64,000 nt of DNA from Candidatus Poribacteria bacterium (GTDB taxonomy: Bacteria > Poribacteria > WGA-4E > PCPOR2b): NCBI GenBank assembly GCA_022822005.1, contig JAJECO010000044.1, positions 1-64,000 of the forward strand, read 5' to 3'. The notes under the pieces are model-generated. The model saw nothing but the letters and a program-made list of their open reading frames with translations, ran no database searches and was not told the origin of the DNA. The position numbers and the translations under genes were made by a program. Position 1 is the stretch's first letter. Each line of letters starts with the position of its first letter. Of the stretch, positions 9,719 through 61,100 are shown in pieces.

Positions 9719-10615
9719 TCACGGGTTATACTCCCAGTTTGCCTTGCGAGCCCCGTATTTTCTGCCATCAATCACTGTTTGATGACAGTTGAGGCAAGCG
9801 CTGTAGGATTTGACCCCATGGCTTTCATGGTCAAACTGGATTTCAGGGGTGTTGTGAACGTGGCAGGTGAGACAGGTGTAAGCCTCGTACGCGGCATCTG
9901 CATGGACACTTAGCCGATCGCCCATCTTCTTGACCGTATATTCCTCCCCGTTTTTTTCATCGGTTACCAGCCAGTGGTTATCCCCCTCTTTCTTCGAAAT
10001 TGTGGTCTGTCGAGAGAGGGAGGTTCCGTGCAGATTAAACTCCCACTGCAAATCCTCTGAGACAACTCCGCCGGTATCCAAATAGGTCTGGAAATGTGAA
10101 TCGGTGGTAAACAACATTGCTGCTGATGGATGACATTTCACACACGCGACATCGTGAACTTCTGTCAAAGGGAAGAATTCTTCATGGTCTAACTTTTCTC
10201 TACCGTGCAGAAGGATGGAAAGCAGCAAAATTGGTGCGAGCGCAAGATGACAACGGAGGAGGGTGCGTCGTGTTCGATGAGTGGTAAGACTGACGGCAAC
10301 CCCGGTTCCAAAATTGAGCAGCGCCAGTATAAACGCCATCCACGAATGCCAAACGAGGGGTTGAGCCGCTGAGTGGATGAGAACAAGGAACAACCCTAAC
10401 GATGCGAGTCTTTGATGATATTTGAGCCAGACCTGCCGGTTTCCCCATCGGATCAGCCGTGTCCGTAAGATGTAGCCACTCGCAATGAAAAGGATGATAG
10501 CGCCGATGATACTGAGCGTATGCCGAGTCTCGCCAAAACTTGATCTGAGGATGAAGAAGAGGGATATAAGGATCGCTCCCACAGCCCCTTGAGCGATCCG
10601 AATGAATGGATTCAT
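9719..10615 (-). CDS. membrane-bound multihaem cytochrome c
   Basis: 298 residues. The N-terminal half has four to five hydrophobic helices, several bearing histidines (YHQRLAS, LVLIHSA, RCHLAL, LLHGREKL), as in di-haem b-type membrane anchors. The C-terminal half is extracytoplasmic with three CxxCH haem c sites (CVKCH, CLTCH, CLNCH) and additional histidines (DSHFQTY, FDHESHG). It probably passes electrons between the quinone pool or a b-type module and periplasmic partners. No specific family name is assigned. It is downstream of, and co-oriented with, the HtrA-like gene, but the 316-base gap argues against a tight operon. Confidence 0.7.
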   Translation of the reverse strand: MNPFIRIAQGAVGAILISLFFILRSSFGETRHTLSIIGAIILFIASGYILRTRLIRWGNRQVWLKYHQRLASLGLFLVLIHSAAQPLVWHSWMAFILALLNFGTGVAVSLTTHRTRRTLLRCHLALAPILLLSILLHGREKLDHEEFFPLTEVHDVACVKCHPSAAMLFTTDSHFQTYLDTGGVVSEDLQWEFNLHGTSLSRQTTISKKEGDNHWLVTDEKNGEEYTVKKMGDRLSVHADAAYEAYTCLTCHVHNTPEIQFDHESHGVKSYSACLNCHQTVIDGRKYGARKANWEYNP

Positions 10616-58144: not shown

Positions 58145-61100
58145 ATGCCCCATCCCGTCAAATTTGGCAAACCCGTCAGATCTTATGGTAAGCGCGAACG
58201 ACTCTCTTATGGAAAAATTCCGGAGATAATGGATCTCCCGGATCTCATCGAGGTTCAAAAAGCCTCCTACGAAGAATTCCTTCAACGAAACACCTCACCA
58301 GAAGAGCGGAAAGATAAAGGCTTACAAGCTGTGTTCAACGAAATCTTTCCGATTCCTGACTTCAGCGAAACTTCCGAACTTCAGTTCGTTAATTATTTAC
58401 TCGGCACCCCCAAGTACGACATTAATGAATGCCAATCCCGCGGTTTCAGTTATGCGCTGCCGGTGAAGGTGTGTGTCCGATTGGTCCTCAGAGAAAAGGA
58501 TGAGGACACCGGTGAAAACCAGCTCATTGACATAAAAGAAAACGAAGTCTATATGGGCGAAATCCCGCTCATGACCGAAAACGGAACTTTCATTATCAAT
58601 GGATCCGAGCGGGTAATTGTCAGTCAGCTACAACGATCCCCTGGCGCAACGTTTGGTGAAGAAGCTCACACCAGTGGGCAAGCACTCAATAATGCGAGAA
58701 TTATTCCGTACCGTGGCGCGTGGATTGAGTTCGAATACGACATCAAGGACCTGATTTATGTCCGACTTGATCGGCGGAAAAAGATGCTCGTAACCGTTCT
58801 ACTCCGTGCGTTGGGTTGGGAAACAGACGAAACCATCCTTAAGCTGTATGCCGATACCCAGCAACTCAAACTTACTGCCAGACTTATTGACCGAGTGACA
58901 GCTGCTCCTGTCAAACATCCTGCTACCGGTGAGATCTTGGTCGAAGCGAATGTGGAACTGACACGAGAGCAAATCGATGAATTGCGCGAGGCGCAAGTCA
59001 GTAGGGTTGAAGTCCTAAAGGCGGATGCTGCAGAAGATATCCGTTTCCTGCGGAATACCCTCGAACGTGATGTTCAAGCGGACTACAGCCTGCCGCTGAG
59101 TTTTCAAGTTGATTTGGATTCCGTTGCTAGGCCGGAACCGACACAGTTTGAGTCAGATAAGTCGTTTAAGCGTGACGAGAAATGGAAATCATTGTCGGAT
59201 CAGTGTCGAGAAAAGGCTGGTTGGAAATGTGAGCAATGTGGTATTGATCTTAACGATAACCGCGATCTTCTCCATGCTCACCATGTAAAAGGCACCCGGT
59301 ATAATACTCTCAAAGATCTTATGGCTCTCTGCATTGGTTGCCATGCGGAACAACAACCGTGTGAAAGGCATGAACAACTCAAAAAAGAGAACTGTTATCA
59401 AGAATTTATAAAGTTACACGAGAACAATTGGAAGTCTGGCGTTCTCCAATGGAAGTCTGCTCTCCTCCAAAGCGATTTGACAGATGGTGCGCCGGTATCA
59501 GATGCATGGCACCAGCAGTTTAAGGACAATGGCGCTGCTCTTGCCCCAGCCGCCACCGTGCAGGTATTGGCAGAGGGGCGATATCGTATCTCCAACAAGA
59601 ACAGTAGGGATAACTTCACTGTTGAGAAGGTAGGGGATACCCTCAATGTCTATCGTGGTAGTATCCAAGACCTTGCAGTAGTTGAGATTTTTCGTAAGAT
59701 GCAACCGGGCGATCCGCCTACTATCGAGAGTGCACACAACCGATTTGAGAAGCTATTCTTTGATCCGGTGCGTTACGACCTCGCAGAAGTAGGACGGTAC
59801 AAACTCAATGAAAAGTTAGGTAATCTCTCCCTGTATCGGAACGGTGGTGGGGCAGTAGATGAGCAGGTTCGTGTGCTCCGTGCAGAAGACATCGCTGCGG
59901 TTCTCCAGTACCTGATACAAGTACAAAACGGAGAAGGAGAGATGGACGATATCGATCACCTCGGTAATCGTCGGGTTCGAGCTGTTGGGGAGTTGTTGCA
60001 GAATCAGGTGCGGATGGGAATGTTGCGGGTGACCCGTGCAACTCGAGAACGATTGACAGTTCAAGACTTGGAGAGTGTGACCCCTGCCGACCTAATTAAT
60101 CCTAAACCATTGACCGCTGCGATTAAAGACTTCTTCGGTTCAAGCCAACTTTCTCAATTCATGCAGCAGGCCAATCCACTGGACGAATTAACCCATAAAC
60201 GCCGCTTGAGTGCGTTGGGCCCTGGCGGGCTGCATCGGGAACGTGCTACCTTTGAGGTGCGCGATGTGCATCGCACCCACTATGGACGGGTCTGTCCGAT
60301 TGAGACACCTGAAGGTCCTTCGGTCGGGCTAATTGTTTCCTTAAGTACTTATGCACGGGTTAACGCTTACGGTTTTATGGAAACACCTTATCGGAAAGTG
60401 TCTAAAGGCACAGCAACCGATCAGATTGATTACTTGGCTGCGGATAAGGAAGATACGTTCACCATCGCGCAGGCGCATGCTGTCCTTGATGAGGCGGGAA
60501 GGCTGGAAAACGATCTGATGGTGACACGCCAAAAGGATGATTTTCCGCGGAAATTAGCCCCTGAAATTGACTACATTGATGTCTCTCCGAAGCAGATCGT
60601 GGGTGTTTCTGCTGCGCTTATTCCCTTCCTTGAGCACAATGATGCAAACCGTGCGTTGATGGGGAGTAATATGCAGAGGCAAGCCGTGCCGCTTATCCGT
60701 CCGGAGGCTCCGCTGATTGGAACTGGCATGGAGCATAAAGCTGCGCGTGATTCCGGAGCGGTTGTGCTGGCAAAGCGAGATGGCATTGTGGAAAGCGTTT
60801 CTGCCGCCGAAATCATTATTCGCACGGATGATGCCTTCCGAATTGCTGGTGGGGAACAGTCGTTCAGCGAAATGGGTTATGATGTTTACCGCTTGACAAC
60901 CTTCAAGCGATCAAACAGTGGAACGAGCCTCCATCAACGTCCATGTGTAGATGTCGGAGAGGAAATAAAAGCAGGTCAGGTAATTGCCGATGGAACCTCA
61001 ACCGAGAATGGGGAACTTGCCCTTGGCAGCAACATCCTAATCGCATTTATGTCTTGGGAAGGGTATAACTATGAGGATGCCATCCTTCTCAACGAGTCGC

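Follow-up and report, generated by a model that had tools for sequence, protein, structure and literature searches.

The window analyzed here (the whole 64,000 bp stretch at the start of contig JAJECO010000044.1 of a sponge-associated Candidatus Poribacteria bacterium, from the genome called G000 below) contains an rpoB gene, and the features of this gene are collected in Table 1. Only one RpoB match was found in the genome, so rpoB is single-copy. The first-pass annotation of this DNA had described an intact rpoB with about 200 extra residues in the region of the β2 lobe where insertions are tolerated. The frame is indeed open, and when the insert-free RpoB proteins of relatives G006, G008 and G012 are used as reference in a genus and family alignment, about 190 extra residues are present, roughly 314–504. 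The insertion starts directly after a BBM2 repeat and its C-terminal border falls near E. coli β residues ~356–361, the C-terminal edge of β-i4, which is the location of an RNA polymerase (RNAP) β-i4 insertion (E. coli ~225–343). RpoB residues 247–310 align with the β-i4 part of solved RpoB chains (their residues 297–363), in agreement with the published placement of BBM2 at β-i4 (PMC2939025). The one BBM2/BEAN-type repeat in this RpoB is part of the ordinary β lobe of the order, and extra copies of it are present in the RpoB proteins of G001, G003 and G009.

Table 1. Features of rpoB, its composite insertion and the second module B copy of the window
Feature	Coordinates	Strand	Basis or remarks
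rpoB, RNA polymerase β subunit, 1486 aa	58145..62605	+	Open frame; all Pfam Rpb2 domains
BBM2/BEAN-type repeat of the β-i4 (SI1) region, residues 249–309	58889..59071	+	Alignment to solved RpoB chains
Composite insertion, residues 314–504, lying between β-i4 and the remaining β2 lobe	59084..59656	+	Genus and family RpoB alignment
Module B, N-terminal piece, residues 314–322, YSLPLSFQV (cf. consensus LLFSVxL)	59084..59110	+	HNH-free G004 RpoB; module B copies in other genes
HNH block inside module B, residues 323–439	59111..59461	+	Alignment; G004 RpoB matches 1–325, then 438–1485
ZorE-type HNH nuclease domain, residues 338–427	59156..59425	+	PADLOC ZorE2 match; invariant columns; AF2 model
Module B, remainder, residues 440–503, LLQSDLTDG...LNVY	59462..59653	+	Profile A2/A3 matches
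Second module B copy of the window	9899..10117	-	Inside ORF 9719–10615 (-), a membrane protein with haem-type CxxCH motifs

The extra residues had been read as one segment of about 200 residues; that size and place stand, but the segment is not a unit. It consists of two nested insertions, a ~72-aa in-frame module (module B) that is itself split by a ~117-aa block carrying an HNH motif, and neither of these is a BBM2/BEAN repeat. Inteins with HNH homing nucleases in RNAP genes likewise place an in-frame nuclease domain inside a conserved protein, but the HNH block is shorter than usual inteins, belongs to a different family, and its borders (V322/D323 and L439/L440) lack the splice-junction residues (Cys/Ser at the N-terminus; His-Asn plus Cys/Ser/Thr at the C-terminus). 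We therefore reject an intein, in agreement with the first reading, and as far as the sequence tells, the insert is unspliced and left in the mature RpoB protein.

Identity and fold of the HNH domain

Positions 192–279 of the 283 in the PADLOC ZorE2 profile match RpoB residues 338–427 with an E value of 6.4e-19, and ZorE profiles overall match the HNH core at 6e-19 to 2e-10. Only the C-terminal part of these profiles is matched, so the N-terminal half of ZorE is absent; in contrast, the full ZorE of G002 matches its profile over positions 3–276 of 282. The standalone members of the family (271–283 aa) are full ZorE proteins, and at the four loci checked (L036, L085, L088 and L090) ZorA2 and ZorB2 lie upstream of a full-length ZorE. 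Thus the RpoB copy shares its zinc and active-site residues, and its family, with the ZorE of Poribacterial ZorA-ZorB-ZorE operons, but differs in that it lacks the N-terminal domain (which published ZorE mutants show is required for defence, PMC13192584), is embedded in RpoB, and has in its own genome only weak and partial matches to a ZorB2-like partner; its context is rpoB and not a ZorA/ZorB operon. No second ZorE-type HNH that could have been an own-genome donor was found in G000. We conclude that, in identity and anatomy taken together, the HNH core almost certainly corresponds to the nuclease domain at the C-terminal end of ZorE, which is the nickase of the anti-phage system Zorya type II.

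The Pfam HNH family PF01844 scores below its curated cut-off here (15.8 vs 21.4 bits, E 0.015). The absence of an HNH hit in a profile search had been named as a refutation of the HNH reading; the ZorE profiles do match, and the Pfam match is sub-threshold. PF01844 fits this subfamily poorly, since the relatives in G002 (23.8 bits) and G028 (20.2 bits) fall on either side of the same cut-off.

The motif C-x2-C ... HH ... C-x2-C-H (zinc/ββα-metal type) is present at 362/365, 379/380 and 396/399/400, with zinc cysteines C362, C365, C396 and C399 and active-site residues H379, H380, N387, H400 and H409; all of the residues listed by the first-pass annotation (C362/C365, H377/H379/H380, C396/C399/H400 and D391) are where it had placed them. 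The catalytic His pair, the final His, a further His and all four zinc Cys do not vary across 13–17 sequences, a set that takes in all four RNAP-embedded HNH copies (below), and every His or Cys that is invariant in the family is kept in this RpoB copy. Mutational analysis has found ZorE H226, K231, H247 and H253 to be necessary and N238 to be needed (PMC13192584). The first four correspond in the motif alignment to H380, R385, H400 and H409, and the N238 position is D391. The replacement of the usual Asn by Asp had been pointed out before and is real, but it is not a sign of decay, since the full-length Poribacterial ZorE proteins from ZorA-ZorB-ZorE operons have the same Asp.

An AlphaFold (AF2) model of the HNH domain alone is HNH-like and confident (mean pLDDT 86.8). 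In Foldseek its best match is EcoKMcrA (probability 0.98 but a marginal E of 0.03), followed by the HNH nuclease of CBASS Cap5; these fold matches are marginal and no more than suggestive (E 0.03–0.2), and the partner domains of those two nucleases differ. An earlier AF2 model of the whole insert gave no significant Foldseek match, with T4 endonuclease VII at the top (E 0.65). We consider the embedded domain somewhat more likely than not to be nuclease-competent.

History of the site and of module B

Alignment of related RpoB proteins, a check suggested at the outset, finds the HNH block in two of the six genomes of the genus examined (G000 and G003), with the catalytic His conserved. Module B is present in the RpoB of all six and of G007, and is missing from that of G006, G008 and G012; the site is thus empty inside module B in close relatives, and further out module B is missing as well. 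The G003 RpoB, whose core is 98% identical to that of G000, has a homologous HNH in the same module but in a different local arrangement, BBM2-B(HNH)-BBM2-B, where the second module B has no HNH, and the region is therefore also undergoing duplication. These observations bear on whether the insert might be an assembly chimera or a mis-binned sequence, a concern raised by the fact that the named related records are metagenome assemblies or MAGs. We find such an artefact scarcely credible: the rpoB frame has no interruption and lies on a 290-kb contig, the homologous but differently arranged HNH of G003 comes from a separate assembly, and the same class of insert is found on long contigs of near-complete assemblies such as G030.

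Between G000 and G003 the RpoB core has a dS of 0.17 and a dN/dS of 0.04, and the HNH block a dS of 0.43 and a dN/dS of 0.47. The higher dS of the block indicates either that it was not simply co-inherited with the core, in which case recombination or distinct donors could be responsible, or that the value is inflated by the alignment and the small size of the block; its fast change would also be compatible with weak constraint or recombination. The GC content of the block is lower than that of the core (GC3 0.41 vs 0.51), which is consistent with a foreign origin.

Module B is a dispersed element. Its profile matches 16 places in this genome, all in frame, in genes that include (names read from the sequences) SecA, a CtaA/COX15-like protein, a sigma-54-like protein, an ABC transporter (twice), an O-antigen-ligase-like protein and others, and it is found in 78 of 85 Poribacteria genomes, mostly in 5–41 copies (maximum 41). 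The SecA site is filled in the genus and in G007 (g1 and g3) and empty in G006, G008 and G012, a distribution like that in RpoB; at the empty site of G008 SecA, the matches to query residues 1–74 and 148–274 abut. Copies of one peptide interrupt unrelated genes without breaking their frames, and relatives have the corresponding sites unoccupied. Module B matches no Pfam family. It resembles the Rickettsia palindromic elements in being scattered in frame over conserved but unrelated genes and in having unoccupied sites in relatives, but it is longer (~72 aa), is one conserved peptide and hosts a nuclease domain, and no inverted repeats (palindromic or terminal) were found at the RpoB site or among the G008 module B copies.

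Since the HNH domain lies within a dispersed in-frame element and empty alleles exist, it could in principle be a homing or mobility module that spreads by cutting empty module B or rpoB alleles, much like an intein without the splicing, and the first-pass annotation had indeed offered a domesticated homing-type element as one possibility. We regard this as very improbable. All of the other module B copies examined are without an HNH, the other nuclease insertions in RNAP (all except those of G000 and G003) are not in module B, the copies of this HNH elsewhere are ZorE in Zorya II operons or small ORFs, and the full-length members of the family are defence effectors; in addition, a tblastn scan of viral contigs, which relied on one strict peptide pattern, found no viral relative.

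Nuclease insertions in Poribacterial RNA polymerases and their possible role

RpoB and/or RpoC proteins were collected from 79 Poribacteria genomes, and unique inserts were sought by ungapped comparisons. Counted by site, these proteins contain seven nuclease insertions: three of ZorE-HNH, three of an MTES_1575 restriction endonuclease (REase) and one, weakly matched, that is HsdR_N-like; recurrence of this kind, with other nucleases in both RpoB and RpoC, had no counterpart in the first-pass annotation. A ZorE-HNH lies at a different site in the RpoB of G013 (L165), within a 457-aa insert, and another lies in the RpoC of G030 (ZorE2 match at 2e-22; near-complete assembly, long contig). Both ends of the G013 insert (residues 572–585 and 1043–1056) match a single 14-residue stretch of the sibling RpoB, which may represent a duplicated target. 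The MTES_1575 REase is present in the RpoC proteins of G038 (L142) and G010 (L161), with Pfam E values of 4e-24 and 3e-23, and a scan of the phylum with PF18741 added the 2352-aa RpoC of G064 (L197); an MTES_1575 match in G069 was rejected as an RpoC insertion because the protein is a helicase. The HSDR_N-like pair in the RpoB of G076 (L153) has a weak Pfam E of 0.003 and shares 59% identity with a standalone G083 protein.

Sibling proteins are empty at the same RpoB and RpoC positions, and the junctions are clean. The sisters G013 and G010, with RpoB cores 93–97% and RpoC 96–99% identical, have a ZorE-HNH in RpoB and an REase in RpoC, respectively. In the best tree of HNH domains the RNAP copies do not form a group, but a single group is not rejected (p-AU 0.148), and the case for independence of the embedded copies is thus drawn from their different sites and the empty siblings and not from the tree. 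On these grounds, relatives appear to have acquired other defence-type nuclease domains elsewhere in RNAP independently. All HNH scan matches outside RNAP are in frames of 352 aa or less, and a crude binomial estimate for 3 of 32 HNH copies falling in 0.2% of coding residues is 4e-5.

RNAP insertions as such are a known kind. The lineage-specific insertions (β-i4/SI1 and β'-i6/SI3, built of BBM2/BEAN and SBHM/HABAS repeats) occupy the same zone and have the same kind of repeat modules that surround the insert here; those described consist of BEAN, HABAS or sLC domains, are described as ancient and congruent with the tree, and are thought to have stopped accumulating (PMC11515920). In contrast, the Poribacterial nuclease domains arrived sporadically and so recently that they differ between sisters with 93–99% identical RNAP, and they are repeatedly of defence type. 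In our literature search we came across no paper that reports nuclease domains within RNAP insertions, although most subscription papers lay outside the search and priority is thus not proven; nor did the search turn up a paper on RpoB insertions of Poribacteria or on their in-frame repeats. If these nucleases work, immunity would be physically part of the transcription enzyme, a layout that, to our knowledge, is found nowhere else; if they do not, Poribacteria are still a natural experiment on the large foreign domains that an essential enzyme tolerates.

What might such a domain do? Our best guess, close to a suggestion made at first pass, is a nuclease or zinc-binding accessory that acts at the transcription complex. 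The best single explanation, to which we give a little less than an even chance, is that a ZorE HNH domain captured in frame into rpoB and retained in the mature protein serves as an RNAP-tethered nickase, most likely for defence. The domain would fold on the outer face of the β lobe, beside the downstream-DNA channel, one wall of which is formed by β lobe-Si1 (PMC6970531). Full ZorE is a nickase whose local concentration has to be raised by recruitment (PMC11890865), and RNA polymerase, by delivering the HNH to DNA, could supply that recruitment. Because constant nicking activity on RNAP would hurt the host, some restraint must normally exist. On infection, phage DNA might be harmed while it is transcribed, or the host genome might be harmed once a phage controls the polymerase. 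That the embedded HNH has been selected for a role in defence is by itself plausible but still doubtful, in our judgment from the sequences. Points that speak against the tethered nickase are the missing ZorE N-terminal domain, the fast change of the HNH block, the marginal fold matches, the Asp at the N238 position (although Poribacterial ZorE shares it) and the weakness of the ZorB2-like matches in this genome. A broader proposal, that Poribacterial RNAP serves as a platform on which anti-phage nucleases are constitutively tethered and can replace one another (ZorE-HNH, MTES_1575 REase and HsdR_N-like domains exchanged among lineages at permissive β and β' sites), through which the transcription machinery would attack DNA upon infection, we consider unlikely as it stands.

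The main rival to the defensive RNAP-tethered nickase is neutral domain capture. Nuclease domains of defence genes are taken in this case to be abundant, mobile and compact folding units, which tolerant and reshuffling arrays of RNAP insertions (BBM2, BBM1-like and module B) would repeatedly catch and keep for a while without their having any job. This is a serious possibility, if not a probable one: the arrays are very fluid (among the relatives RpoB ranges from 1300 to 1820 aa and RpoC from 1400 to 2350 aa), RNAP has non-nuclease inserts as well (a ~430-aa repeat in G017 RpoC and the SLLCAKLFSDKKY repeats of G011 and G014), the copies are scattered sporadically over genomes, and the dN/dS of the HNH block is high. 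Nonetheless, none of the four embedded HNH copies has a broken active site or zinc site, all three REase copies keep their acidic motif, the unique folded inserts are strongly enriched in nuclease domains, and no other core protein with the same HNH was found, all of which argue against mere cargo. The same retention of the catalytic His makes it improbable that the zinc domain has only a docking or structural role, binding protein or DNA on the β lobe (to dock a regulator, or to fend off phage proteins that bind RNAP) with its cleavage activity lost or irrelevant; different nuclease folds also recur, and a mere surface would need none. Such a role would fit with the binding of regulators such as TraR by E. 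coli β-Si1 (PMC6970531), and the fast change of the segment would suit a surface-binding arms race.

Other insertions and a fused polymerase

Several other peculiarities of these polymerases were observed. The RpoC of G017 (L152) has at residues ~712–1139 a coiled, leucine-rich repeat insert that belongs to no clear family, and the RpoC proteins of G011 (L114) and G014 (L113) carry insertions of repeated motifs of the SLLCAKLFSDKKYATLFAD type. In families f3 and f4 (L121–L177) the subunits are enlarged: RpoC reaches 1870–2350 aa in f3 and RpoB reaches ~1760–1820 aa in its genus g8, the growth of both being due to long arrays of the β'-type repeat Y-VTEVxHPxCPLKVGDxLSxxEYxxAxxxYPGF. Finally, a 2216-aa frame in G051 (L179:1438-8088, + strand) combines a complete RpoB with an RpoA-like part at the N-terminus and with an RpoC that is missing part of its C-terminal domain; by its sequence it is a fused α-β-β' RNA polymerase, and it contains the sole RpoB found in G051.
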